Positions 1 to 38,045 of a DNA stretch of 38,045 bases are shown in pieces. The position numbers and the translations under genes are program-made. The notes under the pieces are model-generated. The model made no database searches, had not been told where the DNA came from, and was given only the letters and a program-made list of their open reading frames with translations. The stretch covers positions 1 to 38,045 of the IMG/VR virus record IMGVR_UViG_3300033156_001353; one strand, given 5' to 3'. This DNA comes from a virus. Every line of letters begins with the position of its first letter. Position 1 is the stretch's first letter.

Positions 1-114
1 AAAAATAATTATAGCCCCAGCTCTACCCACAATTCCTGCAAGTTGTCTACAAGCTTGACCCATAAGCCGAGCCTGAAGACCCATATAAGCTTCTCCTGTA
101 TCTCCCTTATATTC
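1..114. repeat. Terminal direct repeat, left copy (circular junction)
   Basis: These 114 bases are identical to 37932-38045. The recA reading frame passes through both copies in phase, so joining position 37931 to position 1 restores one intact gene. This is the usual signature of a circular or circularly permuted genome written with an overlap at its ends. A true short terminal repeat on a linear virion molecule is less likely, because it would sit inside recA. Confidence 0.9.
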
Positions 115-519
115 TGCTTTCGGAATCATAGCACTCACGGAATCTATCACAAATAGCTCCACATCTGGTAATAGATCCCGAATTATTTCAACAGCCTGCT
201 CTCCATATTCCGGACAAAAATATAAATAATCTTCATTCATCTGTCCTAAACCCAGAGTCTTTGCATAATCCGGATTGAAACTATTCTCCATATCAAGCAT
301 ACATGGTACAAGACCCGCTTTTTGAGCCTGCCTCATTGCATATATCCCCAAAGTAGTCTTTCCTGAACCTTCTTGACCATAAATCTCTATAAACCTACCT
401 GAAGGATATCCACCACCTAAAGCCCAATCAAGAAGAATTGATCCTGAGCTTAAAATATAAACAGGCCTTTGGTCTTGTCCATATTTTTTAATTATTTTTT
501 GATAAAGATTCTCAATCAT
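1..519 (-). CDS. recA: RecA/UvsX-like recombinase, N-terminal part (continues at 37931)
   Basis: Strand-exchange recombinase for phage recombination and replication restart. The ATG at 519 overlaps the SSB stop codon (ATGA) and has GGGGAT upstream. The frame runs off position 1 and continues at 37931 down to the stop at 37530, giving 306 residues in all. In the joined protein, Walker A is GQEGSGKTT at residues 48-56 and Walker B is LFVIDS near 122-127. A Met-Gly-Leu-Gln-Ala-Arg segment near 146 and a loop-2 region with NQTR follow in the second part. It is shorter than bacterial RecA (about 350) and lacks most of the C-terminal domain, as is common in phages. Its position directly after a gp32-like SSB supports a recombination role. 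Confidence 0.93.
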   Translation of the reverse strand, partial: MIENLYQKIIKKYGQDQRPVYILSSGSILLDWALGGGYPSGRFIEIYGQEGSGKTTLGIYAMRQAQKAGLVPCMLDMENSFNPDYAKTLGLGQMNEDYLYFCPEYGEQAVEIIRDLLPDVELFVIDSVSAMIPKAEYKGDTGEAYMGLQARLMGQACRQLAGIVGRAGAIIIF

Positions 520-2927: not shown

Positions 2928-3212
2928 TTATGTCTCCTTAATCTTAATAATTGTCTTATGATCAAGGATGCTACCAATAGGTTCTCCGTCCTTATACACC
3001 ATATCATCTCCCCATTCACGATAAAATCCATTCCCAATTACCCAATACTGTTTACCATTAATTATATGCATACCAGGTTTTGCATTAGATAAATCAGGAT
3101 GTTTTGGTTTATGTCTTTTTTTAGATTTACCACAGGCAGGACAATACTTTTGATACGGTGTGAATTTAGATGGAATAAAAACATTACCACAATTTTGACA
3201 AATTTTTTCCAT
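2928..3212 (-). CDS. Small zinc-ribbon protein with PSKFTPYQKYCP motif
   Basis: A 94-residue protein. The N-terminal zinc ribbon is CQNCGNVFIPSKFTPYQKYC...C (Cys at about 5, 8, 25 and 28), followed by a basic Lys/His linker and a C-terminal GKQYWVIGNGFYREW segment. The ribbon is nearly identical to one in the protein at 3960-4358, and 29 bases of DNA (3139-3167) are identical to 4093-4121. The start lies about 13 bases after a GGGGG run, a long spacing. It is the first gene after promoter P2 and is followed directly by the HTH gene. Function unknown; nucleic-acid or protein binding through zinc is plausible. Confidence 0.75.
   Translation of the reverse strand: MEKICQNCGNVFIPSKFTPYQKYCPACGKSKKRHKPKHPDLSNAKPGMHIINGKQYWVIGNGFYREWGDDMVYKDGEPIGSILDHKTIIKIKET
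3139..3167. repeat. 29-bp exact repeat, copy A
   Basis: These 29 bases are identical to 4093-4121. Both copies encode the KFTPYQKYCP portion of a zinc ribbon in two different small genes. The identity at third codon positions points to a recent duplication or recombination between the two genes, since the flanking DNA has diverged. Confidence 0.9.
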
Positions 3213-3257
3213 TATAAATAATATTCCCCCTTTCCGTTCCCTTTTTTCAACCTTAAA

Positions 3258-3284
3258 GACGACACAAAAGCCGTTTGTGTTTCA
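3258..3284 (-). promoter_or_regulatory. ECF-sigma-like promoter P2
   Basis: On the minus strand, TGAAAC (3284-3279), a 17-base spacer and CGTC (3261-3258), followed by TTTAA. Spacing and the 14-base 3' block match P1 and P3. It lies three bases after the stop of the gene at 3287-3454 and upstream of the zinc-ribbon gene starting at 3212. In this copy and in P1 an ATG overlaps the -35 box and opens a ten-codon reading frame (MKHK...CRL). That frame lacks a start in P3, so the DNA rather than a peptide is likely what is conserved. Confidence 0.55.
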
Positions 3285-3286
3285 TT

Positions 3287-3454
3287 TTAAAATCCATTAT
3301 TGATACATACATCGGATAAAATCTTAAATAAATTATCTTTTCCCAAACGCTCTTCAATGATTTTATCAAGCTCTGGACATTCCTTCTTCATCTCTTCTAT
3401 AATTTGTTTTATATCACCTCTTGCAGAAATTAGTTTAAATTTTATCTTCTTCAT
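3287..3454 (-). CDS. Small hypothetical protein, 55 aa
   Basis: A 55-residue charged, helical protein (starts MKKIKFKLIS, ends SDVCINNGF). The ATG at 3454 lies two bases after the stop of the preceding gene (TAAAATG), so it is probably translated by coupling. No recognisable domain. The ECF-like promoter P2 begins just after its stop codon. I do not recognise it. Confidence 0.6.
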   Translation of the reverse strand: MKKIKFKLISARGDIKQIIEEMKKECPELDKIIEERLGKDNLFKILSDVCINNGF

Positions 3455-3916: not shown

Positions 3917-3960
3917 TGCTCCACCAGGGAATCGAACCCTGGCTTTGCACCATGTGGAGC
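3917..3960 (-). ncRNA. tRNA-like minihelix TLS1 (acceptor stem + T arm, no anticodon arm)
   Basis: Read on the minus strand: GCTCCAC (3960-3954), a 12-base linker ATGGTGCAAAGC, CAGGG (3941-3937), T-loop TTCGATT (3936-3930), CCCTG (3929-3925), GTGGAGC (3924-3918) and a discriminator-like A (3917). The 7-bp acceptor stem and 5-bp T stem are perfect and contiguous, as in a tRNA top half. The T loop has the invariant TTC-R-A. The linker keeps a GG that could dock with it as D-loop G18G19 does. D stem and anticodon arm are absent and no CCA is encoded. The first G is also the last base of the upstream gene's TAG stop. A second element of the same design lies at 4783-4829. Confidence 0.75.
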
Positions 3961-4358
3961 TACTTTTTTAACTTTCTACACTTTGGACAAAGAATAATAT
4001 AGGGAATAAACTTTGATCTCTTCCAAATTTCTCCACATTCAGAACAAACAACCTCTTCATAATCTGGCTTTGGAGCACTTTTTATGCAATCTGGACAATA
4101 CTTTTGATACGGTGTGAATTTGGAAGGAACAAATTCCTTCCCACACCTTTGACAGGTTTTAGTCTTTTTCGTAACATCTCGAACAGTAAGTCTCTTCTCA
4201 CCAGTTACCTCATATTCACCATCCCAAACTACCTTCACAAGATTTTCATGTTTGGAGATTCTAAAAGATTTCCCATCCTGAATGCCTTCATCTCCAATAT
4301 CCCCCTTCTTCCAGCTTCTGACAAGCTGTCTAACTTTTTCAATTTTCTTTAAATCCAT
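3960..4358 (-). CDS. Double zinc-ribbon protein
   Basis: A 132-residue protein. The N-terminal 65 residues are charged and mixed alpha/beta (MDLKKIEKVRQLVRSWKKGD). They are followed by two zinc ribbons: CQRCGKEFVPSKFTPYQKYC...C and CSECGEIWKRSKFIPYIILC...C. The first is almost identical to the ribbon of the protein at 2928-3212, including a 29-bp DNA repeat. The ATG at 4358 has AGGAGG six bases upstream and overlaps the preceding gene by 20 bases. The stop codon TAG supplies the first base of TLS1. With the gene upstream it forms a two-gene unit flanked by the two tRNA-like elements. Function unknown. Confidence 0.75.
   Translation of the reverse strand: MDLKKIEKVRQLVRSWKKGDIGDEGIQDGKSFRISKHENLVKVVWDGEYEVTGEKRLTVRDVTKKTKTCQRCGKEFVPSKFTPYQKYCPDCIKSAPKPDYEEVVCSECGEIWKRSKFIPYIILCPKCRKLKK
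4093..4121. repeat. 29-bp exact repeat, copy B
   Basis: Identical to 3139-3167. It encodes the KFTPYQKYCP segment of the first zinc ribbon in the gene at 3960-4358. Confidence 0.9.
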
Positions 4359-4758
4359 TCTTAGCCTCCTTTATATATTTTTCTTTTGCCTCTTTTAATG
4401 CCCCATCTTCATTTTCACACATGTAGGAAAACTCATAAATCTTATCTCCAACTTTCACTTTATAATACCATCTATTGCCCCATACTTTCCCATCATCCCA
4501 TTTTTCTATAATTTCAGGATCAACCGTAATATATTCCTTTCTCCTTTCTTTCCATTTGAAGAGAGGAATACTGTCTATTAATTCGAAATGGAGATGTTGA
4601 TTATCTCCATCCCGGATTGTGTCTCCAAAGTACAGAAACTGTACTCTTTTCAAGACATACACATTCCGATCTTTTGCTGATTGCCAGACCTCATAACCGA
4701 GGTCTGTTTTTTCAGTTAATATATAACCCTTTAAATCTTCTCTATAAATCTTTTTCAT
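4339..4758 (-). CDS. Hypothetical protein, 139 aa
   Basis: Begins MKKIYREDLKGYILTEK. The ATG at 4758 follows an AGGGGG SD; an earlier in-frame ATG at 4818 would start inside the tRNA-like element TLS2 and is rejected. It is rich in aromatic residues (Trp, Tyr), with alternating beta strands and a lysine-rich C-terminal helix (EDGALKEAKEKYIKEAK). No signal peptide, membrane segment or known motif. It is the first gene downstream of TLS2 and overlaps the double zinc-ribbon gene by 20 bases. I do not recognise it. Confidence 0.65.
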   Translation of the reverse strand: MKKIYREDLKGYILTEKTDLGYEVWQSAKDRNVYVLKRVQFLYFGDTIRDGDNQHLHFELIDSIPLFKWKERRKEYITVDPEIIEKWDDGKVWGNRWYYKVKVGDKIYEFSYMCENEDGALKEAKEKYIKEAKNGFKEN

Positions 4759-4782
4759 CTTAAACCCCCTTAAAAAAGATTT

Positions 4783-4829
4783 TGTCCTGGTGGGGAATCG
4801 AACCCCACCGTTGGACACCAGCCCAGGAC
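4783..4829 (-). ncRNA. tRNA-like minihelix TLS2 (acceptor stem + T arm, no anticodon arm)
   Basis: Read on the minus strand: GTCCTGG (4829-4823), a 15-base linker (4822-4808, containing TGGTG as in TLS1), TGGGG (4807-4803), T-loop TTCGATT (4802-4796), CCCCA (4795-4791), CCAGGAC (4790-4784) and A (4783). The 7-bp acceptor and 5-bp T stem are perfect. The stem sequences differ from TLS1 at nearly every position while pairing is kept, which is covariation within one genome. It lies two bases after a TGA stop and about 15 bases before the SD of the next gene. A run of six T follows about eight bases later, too far for a canonical terminator. Confidence 0.75.
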
Positions 4830-4831
4830 AT

Positions 4832-5047
4832 TCACTCTCCCAAAGCCGCTAGTGCTACGAGTCTTACCTCTGGAGAGAAATCTTTATCATTAGTTATGTG
4901 AGCAAGGATCTCAACACTCGGCATATTGCCTCTTACTTTTTCAACTCTCTCCTGCATGGCCTTAACCATCTTCTTATAACCTTCTTCCCCGTACTGCTTC
5001 TTTAAAAAATTTTGAGCTTTTAAAATTTGATCAACAACTGCCATCAT
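4832..5047 (-). CDS. Small helical protein, 71 aa, first gene of the early region
   Basis: Begins MMAVVDQILKAQNFLKKQYG. The ATG at 5047 has AGGAG about seven bases upstream, so the extension to 5149, which runs through an operator palindrome, is rejected. It is predicted all-helical with a C-terminal segment FSPEVRLVALAALGE that looks like a HEAT-type helix pair. Being the first gene after the operator array, it is likely expressed early and controlled by it. It could be a small regulator or host-takeover protein; no known family. Confidence 0.65.
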   Translation of the reverse strand: MMAVVDQILKAQNFLKKQYGEEGYKKMVKAMQERVEKVRGNMPSVEILAHITNDKDFSPEVRLVALAALGE

Positions 5048-5264
5048 TTTCAATCTCCTTTCAAAAGATTTCACTAAAAAACATGCAAGTCTCATGCCAA
5101 TTTTTATCAGGATTTTCTCTCGTATCATCATGATACAAATAAAACACATATTGATTCATCCTGACACAGATATAGATTCAACAGTGTATCAAGATAATCC
5201 TGAAAGTATATATCGGAATGACACAATCGCAGATTAGAAACATCTCGAATAAGAAAATCCCCAA

Positions 5265-5293
5265 ATTATAGTATCAGGATGATACAACTTTAA
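5265..5293 (-). promoter_or_regulatory. Probable early promoter with operator in the spacer
   Basis: On the minus strand, TTAAAG (5293-5288), a 17-base spacer and a perfect TATAAT (5270-5265). The whole spacer is the operator-like palindrome 5271-5285, so a bound protein would block or contact RNA polymerase. The -35 box is weak. It would drive the genes from 5047 leftward. Position and the perfect -10 box make this the best sigma-70-type promoter I can see. Confidence 0.5.
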
Positions 5294-5297
5294 CTGT

Positions 5298-5309
5298 GAA
5301 AACGTTTTC
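5298..5309. promoter_or_regulatory. cre-like palindrome GAAAACGTTTTC
   Basis: A perfect 12-base palindrome that, with its flanks (TGAAAACGTTTTCT), fits the catabolite-responsive element bound by CcpA and other LacI-family proteins in Firmicutes. A shorter relative, GAAACGTTTTC, is at 5341-5351, 43 bases away, the same spacing as the neighbouring operators. It could be a host regulator site or part of the phage's own repeat unit. Confidence 0.35.
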
Positions 5310-5374
5310 TTTAGTATCAGGATGACACAAATTAAATCATGAAACGTTTTCCTTAATATCAGGATGATACAATC

Positions 5375-5608
5375 TCAAAAGAAAGCTAATTTTACAAGTA
5401 AAGCTATTATTACCGTATACAGTCCAAACAAAATCGTTATTTTAGCCCCAAACCCATTAAATACCTTCTGTTCTATTTTCCTAATACGTTTACTGTTATA
5501 CTCTATCTTTTCCACCAACCTCTCTTTGACCTCATCCGCAACCCTTTTCGCTATCAATTCGATATAGGCTTTCTGGTACTCGTTCATGATCGGTTCTTCC
5601 TTTGCCAT
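5375..5608 (-). CDS. Small membrane protein of the lysis module (XhlA-like)
   Basis: A 77-residue protein with a long charged coiled-coil-like helix (residues about 10-50) and one C-terminal transmembrane segment (ITILFGLYTVIIALLVKLAFF). This layout is that of haemolysin XhlA-type proteins that accompany holins. The ATG at 5608 has GGGG nearby; a second Met at residue 8 with its own AAGGAAG is also possible. It lies three bases after the holin gene. It is the last gene of the late block before the operator region. Confidence 0.65.
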   Translation of the reverse strand: MAKEEPIMNEYQKAYIELIAKRVADEVKERLVEKIEYNSKRIRKIEQKVFNGFGAKITILFGLYTVIIALLVKLAFF

Positions 5609-30505: not shown

Positions 30506-33295
30506 TTAAAATATTTTTACTATTATATCAGACATCTGTCTTAATACCTTTTCCGAAATCTCAACCCTACCCATAGGAACACCTTTATAAAATATATTTG
30601 GATATAAAGAATTTTTGCCCACACGTATAGGTTTATTAATCTCAATAAACATATCTTCATATCTCGTTACAAGCCTCTTTAAAACCCCTCTTTCATCAAC
30701 ATTAAATATCCCTATAGTACCATTTTTTACATTAAGTTTTCCCCATACATTGGGAAATACAGTTATAGATTTAACCCCATCCAAAAACTCCACAGTTAGA
30801 AAAGCCATCGGCAAACCATTTTTAGTAATCTTTTTATGAATATCAATAATTTCTCCAACATTTGCCCATTTATTCCACCAAATACAATCTATCTTACGCT
30901 TCCCTACATAATATCCCAAAAATTCCCTTTCATCTTCCATCGTAGGCTTTCGACCAAATACACCTATTCTATCTAATATATCTAATACCCGCTTATTAAC
31001 ACGAGCCTTTTGAATAAAATCTTCCTTATCCTTATATGGCCTATTCTTAAGTATTACTTCAACAGTCTTTTTACCAATATATTTTATACCACCTAATCCA
31101 ATATATATATGATCATCTCTTACTTCAAAACTTTCCCCAGATTTATTTATGTCTGGATATCTAATCTCTACACCTCTACGCCTACATTCACTCAATATCA
31201 AGGTTCTTTTACTGATATCTGAATTGTTTAAAAGCTCACATAAAAAGTATGCGGGATAATTGGCCGAAAAATATGCTGTCCAATAAGAAATAAGTGTATA
31301 TGCTACAGCATGACTTAAATTCCACGTATATCGACCATATTTTTCAATAATGTTCCAAAACTTTTCCCCATCTTCACAACTTGCAATAAATTTAGATTTT
31401 AAACCCTTAAGTAATTTTTTATCCTTTTTACTAATAGCTTTTCTGAGAATATCAGCTTCCCCAGTACTAAAACCAGCTACTACCCTGGCTAAAGTCATAA
31501 TATCTTCTTGAAATAACGGTAAACCCTGATGTTTAAGCTTAAGCCTCGGATGTAACTGTTCTACAGGTTCAAGCCCATGTTTCCGCCTTATATACTGCTC
31601 AGTGATTCCACTCTCTAAACAACCTGGTCTATATAAAGTATTTAAATCAACAAGCTCATCAAAAGTCTCTGGCTTAAGCCTCCGGATTATGTTAATATAA
31701 CCACTTGATTCCCATTGAAACACTCCCAAAGTATGACCTGACCTAATAAGATCAAAAGTCTTTTCATCATCAAGAGGAATATCCTCTACAGAAATACTTA
31801 ACTGCTTACACAAATTCTCTATCATCTGTAAATTATTAACACTCAATACATCAAACTTAACCCTCTTCATATATTCAAGACTATACATATCCCATGCTGT
31901 AGCTATCTTTCCTTTATATTTTCTCAAAGGTATACTATCAGCACATACTATTCCCGATGCATGAATAGATTGACCCTTCTTTACCCCCTCAAGTTTAAGA
32001 CATATACGTATAAACTCTTCATTATGTTCACGCTTAACCTGATCCAGAAAACTCTTAGTTTTGACAAGTTCAGCCAAAGTAGGAATTGGAGCTTCATTCG
32101 GTACATATTCTATAAGTTTTGTCTTTATTCCCAAAAGTTTAGATACCGTTATTAAAACATCTTTCGTACCAAATGTTTGATACGTACCTATTTTCTGAAA
32201 ATTACCATATGCGTTAAAAATATCAATAGCTTTTTCTCTCCCCTCTGGAGTAAAATCTAAATCTATATCAGGTAAAGATATTCTATCTGGATTTAAAAAT
32301 CTCTCAAAGTAAAGACCCCATTCTATCGGGTCTATTTTGGTTATTCCCAAAAGATACGATACAAGTGACCCCGACGCACTACCACGACCCCATCCTCGAA
32401 ATCCACCACGATTATCAAATTTATTGCAAACAGTAGCAACCAAAGCAAAATATGATAAAAATCCATTCTCTTTGATAACTTTAAGCTCATACTCAAGCCT
32501 TTGTCTATAACCCACTGGACACCTTCTCCGAAGACTCTCTATAAGAACCTCTTCAGAAAATTCAAATTTTGGCATAATAATTTCATCAGGAGCTATTTCA
32601 TACTCTTCCACACTATCAGCTATCTCTTCCGCAACCTTACAATCTATTTTCCTGTAAAAATATTCTCCATTCAAAGGTTTCGGATCTTTAAATTTTAATT
32701 TATACAACAAAAAATGAATTTGTTTATCCTCTTTATCTAAATAATGCGTATCTCCAGTATGTACACACCTTAACCCACGTTTTTTATATTCCCTATAAAC
32801 TGCCTCTTGTTCAGCCATTCCACATAACTGTACTTCTGGATATATCTCAACTTGATCATCCATTTTCTTATACCATTCCATATCAATACTTCCATTAAGT
32901 ACCGATTTTGCCAAATATCCACTTATACATCCAGTAAGATATATAATTCCATCACTATAAGTTTTTAAATATTCAAATGGAACAACAGGTTTTCTATAAA
33001 AATTTTGCACCGCAAGATTATTTAATCTAATCAAATTATCAAAACCACGCTTATTTTTAGCCAAAGCTACAATATGATATGTATCTCCATTGTATTCATG
33101 ATAAAACTCACATCCATGAATAGGTTTAATCCCTTGCTTCTTGCAAGCTCTATGAAATTCCACAAGTCCACCAACAGTTCCATGATCAGTAAGAGCCACA
33201 GCCTTTTCTCCATTCTGTTTTGCACGCTTTACCAAATCTTCCACTTTAACTATTGAATCTAATACTGAATAATCCGAATGATTATGTAAGTTCAT
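30506..33295 (-). CDS. dnaE: DnaE-type DNA polymerase III alpha subunit with PHP domain
   Basis: 929 residues, shorter than bacterial DnaE (about 1160). PHP domain 1-215 keeps the metal ligands seen in active PHP exonucleases: H4/H6 in LHNHSDYS, D37-H38, E63, H74, C123, D182 and H184. Polymerase palm: GRGSASGS at 303-310, PDIDLDF with Asp343 and Asp345, and KFDVL with Asp482. An OB-like segment lies near residue 820 (IIDIHKKITKNGLPMAFLTV). It is the only replicative polymerase in the window. The start overlaps the dUTPase stop (ATGA). In this genome it must copy and accept Z if the PurZ prediction holds. Confidence 0.95.
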   Translation of the reverse strand: MNLHNHSDYSVLDSIVKVEDLVKRAKQNGEKAVALTDHGTVGGLVEFHRACKKQGIKPIHGCEFYHEYNGDTYHIVALAKNKRGFDNLIRLNNLAVQNFYRKPVVPFEYLKTYSDGIIYLTGCISGYLAKSVLNGSIDMEWYKKMDDQVEIYPEVQLCGMAEQEAVYREYKKRGLRCVHTGDTHYLDKEDKQIHFLLYKLKFKDPKPLNGEYFYRKIDCKVAEEIADSVEEYEIAPDEIIMPKFEFSEEVLIESLRRRCPVGYRQRLEYELKVIKENGFLSYFALVATVCNKFDNRGGFRGWGRGSASGSLVSYLLGITKIDPIEWGLYFERFLNPDRISLPDIDLDFTPEGREKAIDIFNAYGNFQKIGTYQTFGTKDVLITVSKLLGIKTKLIEYVPNEAPIPTLAELVKTKSFLDQVKREHNEEFIRICLKLEGVKKGQSIHASGIVCADSIPLRKYKGKIATAWDMYSLEYMKRVKFDVLSVNNLQMIENLCKQLSISVEDIPLDDEKTFDLIRSGHTLGVFQWESSGYINIIRRLKPETFDELVDLNTLYRPGCLESGITEQYIRRKHGLEPVEQLHPRLKLKHQGLPLFQEDIMTLARVVAGFSTGEADILRKAISKKDKKLLKGLKSKFIASCEDGEKFWNIIEKYGRYTWNLSHAVAYTLISYWTAYFSANYPAYFLCELLNNSDISKRTLILSECRRRGVEIRYPDINKSGESFEVRDDHIYIGLGGIKYIGKKTVEVILKNRPYKDKEDFIQKARVNKRVLDILDRIGVFGRKPTMEDEREFLGYYVGKRKIDCIWWNKWANVGEIIDIHKKITKNGLPMAFLTVEFLDGVKSITVFPNVWGKLNVKNGTIGIFNVDERGVLKRLVTRYEDMFIEINKPIRVGKNSLYPNIFYKGVPMGRVEISEKVLRQMSDIIVKIF

Positions 33296-36771: not shown

Positions 36772-37094
36772 AATACAAGTTCCTTTTCCTCTGTTACGAG
36801 AGTTATTTTTCTACTTAAAGAATCATATTGAAACTTTACATCCTTAAGTAACTGTTCAAACATATCACGTTTTGACATAGCCTCTAAATCTCCCCTATTC
36901 AACCGTACATGATTTACAAGAAAAGCATATATTTCAGAAAGATAATTATACAACGCAGGATAATAACCAAGCAAATCATAATAAAGATCCTTATCAACAG
37001 GTAGCTTATAATGGAGCTTGATTAATTTAAACATCTTCTTTCTAATCTCATTAAAAGGTACACTAAGCACATTATCTACTCTTATATATTCCAT
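36768..37094 (-). CDS. Hypothetical helical protein, 108 aa
   Basis: MEYIRVDNVLSVPFNEIRKK; all-helical with DLEAMSKRDMFEQLLKDVKF at the C-terminus. It overlaps the DatZ-like gene by 13 bases and the next gene by ATGA. I looked for a MazG/MazZ motif (EExxE ... ExxD) and did not find it. Not recognised. Confidence 0.65.
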   Translation of the reverse strand: MEYIRVDNVLSVPFNEIRKKMFKLIKLHYKLPVDKDLYYDLLGYYPALYNYLSEIYAFLVNHVRLNRGDLEAMSKRDMFEQLLKDVKFQYDSLSRKITLVTEEKELVL

Positions 37095-37624
37095 TGATAT
37101 CCCTCTAAACTCGTTTTATATAATGGAATACAGTATTCAAGTCTTGACAAGAAAAACCTCTTTACATTATGATCTATATCAAAATTATAAAGCTTTGTGT
37201 AAGTATATCGCTCCACATCATATAAATGCCAATTACCACTTTTTCGCTCTTCTTCAAGATAAATCTTAAGCTCAAGAAGATCACAAAATTCCACAAGCTT
37301 CTGTATATTCTCGGAAAAGTCATTCTCTATACCAAATTCTTTATAAATATTTTCTTCTGGAACATTAAGTATAGGCTTAAAAAATGAAGGAATGTCTCCA
37401 GTTATACATTCAGGAAGATCATGAAAAAGTGCACATCGCAAAGCCTCTTCAACCGAAAGTCCCATCATCATAGCACCAAGCATTGCATAATAAGCCACAA
37501 AATATGAATGTTCAGCCACAGATATTTTATTATTTACGCACCTTGTTGAGAACCGCTTGATATATCTCAAAGATCTGTTTCTCCGATAATTTAGAGATGG
37601 ATTCATAAAACGCTTGTTTGCCAT
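37082..37624 (-). CDS. datZ: DatZ-like HD-domain dATP phosphohydrolase
   Basis: 180 residues. LRYIKRFSTRCVNNKISVAE-His39-Ser aligns without gaps to the start of YfbR/DatZ enzymes. Then comes H68-D69 in LFHDLPECITGDIP and the last metal ligand D115 in FCDLLELK. DatZ of cyanophage S-2L removes dATP so that polymerases insert Z opposite T. Together with PurZ this supports a Z genome. The ATG at 37624 has GGGGAG seven bases upstream but overlaps recA by 95 bases; a Met at 37606 or a TTG at 37570 (GGAG upstream) are alternative starts. A general dNMP phosphatase (YfbR) is the other possibility. Confidence 0.78.
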   Translation of the reverse strand: MANKRFMNPSLNYRRNRSLRYIKRFSTRCVNNKISVAEHSYFVAYYAMLGAMMMGLSVEEALRCALFHDLPECITGDIPSFFKPILNVPEENIYKEFGIENDFSENIQKLVEFCDLLELKIYLEEERKSGNWHLYDVERYTYTKLYNFDIDHNVKRFFLSRLEYCIPLYKTSLEGYQWNI

Positions 37625-38045
37625 TGAATTTCTCCCCTTCATAAATATACCATGTACCATTAATAGTTACCTCTCCACACATAATTAAAAATTCTATAAA
37701 TTCTCTATGAAGATCAATACCTTTACCATACACAAGAGGAATATCTACCTCTCTAAAAGGAAGACTAAATTTATTTTTTGTTATTTTAGCCCTTATTAAG
37801 TGACCCTCTTTATTAACCTCAATAGCTCTAACATGAATCCTTTGGGAAGAATAAAATCGTAAAGCCTTTCCACCGCTTGTAGTTTCCGGAGATCCAAAAA
37901 ATACACCTATTTTTACACGAGTCTGATTGATAAAAATAATTATAGCCCCAGCTCTACCCACAATTCCTGCAAGTTGTCTACAAGCTTGACCCATAAGCCG
38001 AGCCTGAAGACCCATATAAGCTTCTCCTGTATCTCCCTTATATTC
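37530..38045 (-). CDS. recA: RecA/UvsX-like recombinase, C-terminal part
   Basis: Continuation of the gene that starts at 519. The frame is open from 38045 (which equals position 114) to the stop at 37530 and carries LAGIVGRAGAIIIFINQTRV, the loop-2 region FFGSPETTSGGKALRFYSS, and IPLVYGKGIDLHREFI. An internal Met (38015) could be mistaken for a start; it corresponds to residue 146 of the intact protein. The C-terminal domain is reduced. The last 95 bases overlap the DatZ-like start region. Confidence 0.93.
   Translation of the reverse strand, partial: EYKGDTGEAYMGLQARLMGQACRQLAGIVGRAGAIIIFINQTRVKIGVFFGSPETTSGGKALRFYSSQRIHVRAIEVNKEGHLIRAKITKNKFSLPFREVDIPLVYGKGIDLHREFIEFLIMCGEVTINGTWYIYEGEKFNGKQAFYESISKLSEKQIFEIYQAVLNKVRK
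37932..38045. repeat. Terminal direct repeat, right copy
   Basis: Identical to positions 1-114; see the left copy. Removing it gives a circular map of 37,931 bp. Confidence 0.9.

Follow-up and report, generated by a model that had tools for sequence, protein, structure and literature searches.

Several known systems cut RNA at gene junctions, and some of them use tRNA-like folds to do so. Mitochondrial tRNAs and t-elements are cutting signals in polycistronic RNA, RNase P and RNase Z excise mascRNA from its longer precursor, and the RNase III sites of the T7 early mRNA and phage Pistol and hammerhead ribozymes provide RNA-level cutting at gene junctions. Here we describe two tRNA-like minihelices, TLS1 and TLS2, in a phage record from IMG/VR (38,045 bases, the whole stretch of DNA analysed, hereafter the window), together with relatives in other phages. 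Like these elements, mascRNA and menRNA (MALAT1 and MEN-beta 3' ends) combine an acceptor stem, a tiny D-arm with GGUGG and a T-arm, but they are eukaryotic, keep a longer anticodon-side remnant, lie at a transcript 3' end and occur in single copy. Mitochondrial punctuation also places tRNAs or tRNA-like folds between genes, but it is organellar and uses mostly full tRNAs, whereas the present class belongs to phages with bacterial hosts and has no anticodon. RNase III sites and the Pistol and hammerhead ribozymes differ in both cutter and fold. The tRNA-like domain of tmRNA shares an acceptor and T arm, a reduced D-arm and the lack of an anticodon arm; unlike tmRNA, the class has no tag reading frame and no pseudoknots, and is far shorter. 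Among phage RNAs, RNase P cuts the non-tRNA substrates phi80 M3 RNA, P1/P7 C4 RNA and T4 gene 32 mRNA (PMC11143913), in line with what we propose below; these RNAs are not described as a conserved intergenic class of T-arm/D-arm minihelices, and by that description stand apart. No published description of the phage class was found in the open-access literature.

Two minihelices in one operon of the window

A first-pass annotation, made from sequence, had described TLS2 as a 7-bp acceptor, a 5-bp T stem with a TTCGATT loop, TGGTG in the linker and an A discriminator, built like TLS1 and lying between a stop codon and a Shine-Dalgarno sequence (SD). All of these parts were recovered. Read on the minus strand from 4829 to 4783, TLS2 is GTCCTGG gctggtgtccaacgg TGGGG ttcgatt CCCCA CCAGGAC A, in which the acceptor (7/7) and T stem (5/5) give 12 Watson-Crick pairs; there is no anticodon arm, and a 15-nt linker replaces the D and anticodon arms of a tRNA. 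The features of the locus are as follows.

4783..4829, minus strand: TLS2, whole element, 47 nt, with a discriminator-like A at 4783 (sequence, pairing, RNAfold, shuffles)
4823..4829, minus strand: TLS2 acceptor 5' strand GTCCTGG, pairing 7/7 with 4784-4790
4815..4822, minus strand: TLS2 predicted mini D-arm G-C-UGGU-G-U (RNAfold; 46/46 relatives have a standard pair at the homologous flanking position)
4791..4807, minus strand: TLS2 T arm TGGGG-TTCGATT-CCCCA (pairing)
4784..4790, minus strand: TLS2 acceptor 3' strand CCAGGAC (pairing)
3917..3960, minus strand: TLS1, sister element, GCTCCAC atggtgcaaagc CAGGG ttcgatt CCCTG GTGGAGC A (sequence, pairing, RNAfold)
4832..4834, minus strand: TGA stop of the upstream ORF 4832-5047, ending 2 nt before TLS2 (sequence, ORF)
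4756..4769, minus strand: SD GGGGG (4769-4765) and ATG (4758-4756) of the downstream gene 4339-4758 (sequence, ORF)
3960..4758, minus strand: two-gene unit, gene 4339-4758 plus zinc-ribbon gene 3960-4358, with TLS2 on one side and TLS1 on the other (ORFs, domains)

RNAfold gave TLS2 a folding energy of -25.3 kcal/mol (z -3.3) and added a feature absent from the earlier description, a mini-hairpin in the linker (GGGC UGGU GUCC, loop UGGU). The TGGTG of the linker lies within the predicted mini D-arm C-UGGU-G, which can be extended to the longer hairpin in competition with the last two acceptor pairs. When TLS2 was folded in a 131-nt context, the minimum free energy structure no longer had the full 7-bp acceptor; the T arm remained, as did most acceptor pairs, and competing pairings appeared. 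TLS1, read from 3960 to 3917, follows the same plan. The earlier statement that almost all paired bases differ between the two copies was too strong, as 7 of the 12 pairs differ and 5 are identical; it holds in so far as all 7 differing pairs are changed on both sides with pairing kept.

Both elements lie in a minus-strand operon of small genes located between a holin and a PurA-like gene. TLS2 is separated from the plausible SD GGGGG by 13 nt. The acceptor of TLS1 takes its base 1 from the final G of the upstream TAG stop (3962-3960), and an SD (AGGAGG) follows at 3906-3901. The 5' boundary reads U-1/G1 in TLS2 and A-1/G1 in TLS1, so that both have the purine at +1 and the A or U at -1 of RNase P substrates, and TLS2 has the 12-bp acceptor/T stack and T-loop of such substrates. 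Neither has a 3' RCCA (TLS2 continues A-AAA and TLS1 A-AAT).

The window holds two elements where 150 dinucleotide shuffles gave a mean of 0.027, an element being defined by a TTCRANN loop, a linker that contains GG, and 12 perfect pairs; when the loop was restricted to TTCGATT, none of the 150 shuffles of the window contained an element. A chance hairpin is excluded by these shuffles. An intrinsic terminator would account for the T-rich runs (TCTTTTTT, TTATTTTT) that lie a few nt beyond both TLS1 and TLS2, but the runs are not adjacent to the stem, they lie beside the SD of the next gene, and most relatives have none. We reject the terminator on this anatomy, and give the two ideas, terminator or chance hairpin, a negligible probability.

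No Rfam family reached its gathering score for the window elements. Among 4227 families the best for both TLS1 and TLS2 was mascRNA-menRNA (RF01684), with 26.2 and 25.8 bits; these scores are below the gathering cut-off of 42.5, and membership was rejected. In 7 other element-bearing loci no mascRNA likeness was found at E<0.5, in a search space ~50 times larger. The acceptor stem and the T arm with its TTCRA loop are traits shared with tRNA (RF00005), but a full tRNA was rejected: there is no anticodon arm or full D-arm, ARAGORN found 0, and against RF00005 TLS1 scored 20.5 bits versus 29 and TLS2 was not listed. A tmRNA was likewise rejected, as ARAGORN reported none and there is no tag reading frame; cyano_tmRNA gave only a 17-nt match at 10 bits.

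A 12-bp helix and a reduced D-arm in other phages

IMG/VR was scanned with the pattern TGGTG-N(3-18)-GGTTCGATTCC, which has no requirement for an acceptor stem. At least 120 contigs matched, and further scans enlarged the set. After removal of tRNAs and duplicates, 153 seeds remained among the matches listed, and 118 of these had a T stem. An acceptor-plus-T helix of 11–13 bp was present in 72 of the 118 T-stem seeds among the matches listed, versus 7.4 expected when the 3' strand was swapped between seeds. Contiguous helix length was bimodal among the seeds listed, with helices of at least 14 bp in few. Since exact 12-bp helices split as 7+5, 6+6 or 5+7 in similar counts (among the matches listed), it is total helix length, not stem identity, that is conserved. 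The conserved quantity is 12 bp, the length of the tRNA acceptor/T stack, which RNase P measures in pre-tRNA.

The pair flanking C-UGGU-G was never part of any search pattern. Among the matches listed it was a standard pair in 46/46 elements, versus 20.4 expected from the columns, and six pair types were represented; C-UGGU-G is a reduced D-arm that presents GG to the T-loop. Pair statistics were counted from the T-loop outwards because MAFFT misaligns the 5' acceptor strand across linkers of unequal length. T-stem pairs were 100% standard (alignment A1), and covariation scored jointly over the T stem and mini D-arm was 0.74, compared with 0.13 in shuffled alignments. Base 1 was a purine in 47/57 elements and base -1 an A or T in 46/57, both counts being inflated by related phages. 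Acceptor sequence differs widely from one element to another, as does the base that follows the 12-bp helix; this disfavours an aminoacylation mimic of fixed identity. An encoded CCA is rare. A strict pattern matched only five times in genomes of bacteria and archaea totalling 257 Gb.

Elements were also positioned non-randomly with respect to genes. Among the matches listed, the stop of a frame of at least 40 codons fell between 60 nt upstream of the element and 10 nt inside it in 54/70 cases, versus 18–29 at control sites shifted by 200–400 nt, and a stop together with a downstream SD-start was found for 17/70 elements versus 1–2 at shifted sites. With a crude gene caller, 29/53 elements were intergenic compared with 13% of random points, and both neighbouring genes were co-directional in 20 of the 29. 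The first-pass annotation had concluded from the two window copies that selection acts on the structure; this conclusion is supported, far more by the 12-bp ruler in unrelated phages, the 46/46 D-arm pairs, the covariation and the stop-codon enrichment than by the two copies themselves. The reading of TLS2 as a tRNA-like minihelix under structural selection is therefore well supported.

The same evidence bears on the alternative raised by the first-pass annotation against its own reading, namely a decayed att site or tRNA remnant. We considered it as a tRNA gene in decay or as an attP that corresponds to the 3' end of a tRNA of the host. Att sites often lie in tRNA genes, and the T-arm and acceptor resemble bacterial tRNA 3' halves. 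A tRNA-like attP is carried by HF2 (PMC8707807). In the window, however, two copies with different stems have both acceptor strands complete and fully paired, and no integrase was found among the proteins scanned (a subset of ORFs); elsewhere, compensated stems recur between genes in many independent phages. This origin is disfavoured, and we regard it as very improbable.

In marine T7-like phages, unannotated elements precede the capsid gene. The one in Synechococcus phage S-RIP1, at ~44254, lies immediately 5' of the major capsid gene and has an extra hairpin at the position of the anticodon arm. Related marine contigs keep the element with compensatory changes and have the upstream stop, TGA or TAA, inside the acceptor strand. 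The same scan found no such element in phage T7. The cyanophages P-SSP10 and S-RIP2 have related folds with a longer linker, as does P-SSP7 with one mismatch.

L128:35300 and 35994, L127:39632, L131:630: related longer-linker cyanophage folds

In about one third of cases the detected stop overlaps the 5' strand of the element, as in TLS1 and in cyanophage elements with AAGTGA or AAGTAA. A terminating ribosome would then unfold the element, as might be expected of an uncut cis structure that protects the downstream mRNA, blocks exonucleases, or couples or uncouples translation of the neighbours. The fold is also very stable, and another hairpin no more than 5 nt beyond the element was found in 19/75 cases, versus ~6 in shuffles, with one shifted control also giving 19 and no such hairpin at TLS1 or TLS2. 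As it is absent from the window and matched by a shifted control, this hairpin was left out of the class claim. A plain stabiliser needs no canonical T-loop, no D-arm GG and no exact 12-bp total, and we give a structure that acts uncut a rather low probability. At two other loci (L037:10599-10653 and L084:2348-2401), a Glutamine-II (downstream-peptide) riboswitch lies on the same strand slightly upstream of the mini-tRNA.

Candidate cleavage at gene junctions and non-coding arrays

The features kept in the class are those read by RNase P, RNase Z and other enzymes that act on the tRNA top half. The mechanism that we consider most likely, at roughly even chances of being right, is cutting in cis by host RNase P, perhaps with RNase Z, which would punctuate the operon. 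TLS2 would mimic a tRNA top half within a phage polycistronic mRNA: its acceptor and T stems would stack to 12 bp and carry a canonical T-loop, on which the GG of the vestigial D-arm could dock as in the tRNA elbow. Host RNase P would read the 12-bp stack and T-loop and cut before G1 (4830/4829), with a possible second cut by host RNase Z behind the discriminator (4783/4782). Cleavage would part the upstream cistron from the downstream cistron, with a new 5' end 13 nt ahead of the SD after the RNase Z cut, or one minihelix further ahead with RNase P alone. TLS1 would act likewise one unit downstream, so that the pair would release a two-gene mRNA, and the unit 3960-4758 is the predicted processed product. 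The benefit might be independent stability or expression of adjacent genes. The fold, the covariation, the helix length, the position and the recurrence in unrelated phages are observed; we infer the enzymes, the cleavage and the benefit, and commit to RNase P cutting in cis on the strength of the retained enzyme-read features, the trend at bases 1 and -1, the mascRNA score and a parallel with ribozymes.

This parallel comes from two unrelated phages in which a gene has a self-cleaving ribozyme on one side and an element on the other, all on one strand. In contig L172 a Pistol ribozyme (3983-4047) is followed by a gene (4062-4427), the element (from 4439) and another gene; in contig L091 a hammerhead (1234-1158) is followed by a gene (1086-856), the element (813-770) and another gene. 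In both, the element fills the type of slot that a known RNA cutter fills one gene upstream. These were the only self-cleaving ribozymes found in ~440 kb of element-bearing loci. Conversely, an independent set of contigs picked by a hammerhead pattern held 7 strict elements in 1126 kb (control 1), compared with one in a neutral sample of 982 kb of phage contigs, an association that is post hoc and based on small numbers.

Several observations argue against punctuation. A cut before base 1 would remove an upstream stop that overlaps the 5' strand and leave a non-stop mRNA, so that these overlaps do not fit. Few elements encode a CCA, and the base that follows the helix is unconstrained; a 3' RCCA is helpful, not essential, for RNase P (PMC11143913). 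In the longer context, the TLS2 acceptor is predicted to compete with other pairings, and the mascRNA likeness of the window copies was unseen in the 7 other element-bearing loci searched. Finally, the largely non-coding arrays of two phages are unexplained by mRNA punctuation. In the record of L187 (L268:6274-7654), about a dozen divergent minihelices occupy ~1.2 kb with no substantial coding gene between them; several have the T-loop TGCAAAT instead of TTCGATT, and many are followed by a second hairpin. In L121, several minihelices are interleaved with true tRNA genes in a stretch without ORFs of at least 60 aa. Both cases suggest that at least some elements act as products in trans.

The excised 45-nt RNA may accordingly be a product in its own right, a mini-tRNA serving in trans as, for example, an enzyme substrate or a decoy, with the CCA-adding enzyme, toxins or defence factors that act on tRNA 3' ends, RNase P or T-loop modifying enzymes as possible targets. 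Such proteins read the same features that the class conserves, which adds to the case made by the two arrays. However, most elements, including TLS1 and TLS2, stand singly between genes and at stop codons, a placement unneeded in trans, and neither the acceptor sequence nor the following base is conserved. We consider action in trans unlikely, while giving it some weight. A further set of about ten tRNA-like folds was seen at L019:700-9300; several have a D-arm (AGC-TTGGTA-GCA) without an anticodon arm, and in most cases a conserved GCTGGCATC-like motif lies between the fold and the next gene.

With the relatives occupying the same gene-gap position in many unrelated phages, phages may borrow host tRNA-cutting enzymes for use on their own messages. 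Returning to cis cutting, we tentatively propose, at a little under even confidence, a widespread and unnamed phage class of anticodon-less mini-tRNAs that pass polycistronic mRNAs to the host enzymes of tRNA maturation to be cut, serve at gene junctions in much the way that self-cleaving ribozymes do, and have in some phages expanded into non-coding arrays whose products are mini-tRNAs. As a kind of tRNA-like processing signal, the class has a real chance of deserving a family of its own. If the elements are cut as proposed, bacterial viruses would have evolved the trick of mitochondria and MALAT1, namely the use of RNase P and RNase Z to cut mRNA, and the elements would be naturally occurring minimal substrates of RNase P whose 12-bp ruler can be counted. 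Phage annotation would also gain an RNA family missed by tRNA finders and Rfam, including in marine cyanophages with deposited genomes.

The window phage and its operon

A RecA/UvsX-like gene is apparently split across both ends of the window (1-519 and 37530-38015), so the record probably represents a nearly complete, circularly permuted genome. Its terminase is nearest to those of phages of Clostridia, and protein scans of viral contigs with the neighbour gene, the PurA-like protein and the holin found no close relatives. The window encodes a PurA-like protein of the adenylosuccinate synthetase family (1160-2212), a YfbR/HD-phosphohydrolase (37082-37660) and a DNA polymerase of the PHROG 405 family (30506-33295); from these three genes it is possibly a 2-aminoadenine (Z-DNA) phage. 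Upstream of the TLS2 operon, at 5211-5396, tandem repeats with a 43-nt period and near-palindromic GTATCAGGATGATAC cores look like operators or iterons. Within the operon that carries TLS1 and TLS2, two 45-nt copies that are 76% identical (AAAGACGACACA...GTTTCAT) lie at gene junctions (2452-2496 and 3246-3290), and a zinc-ribbon segment with the motif PSKFTPYQKYCPxC is duplicated in two operon genes (3139-3206 and 4093-4160) with 84% DNA identity.
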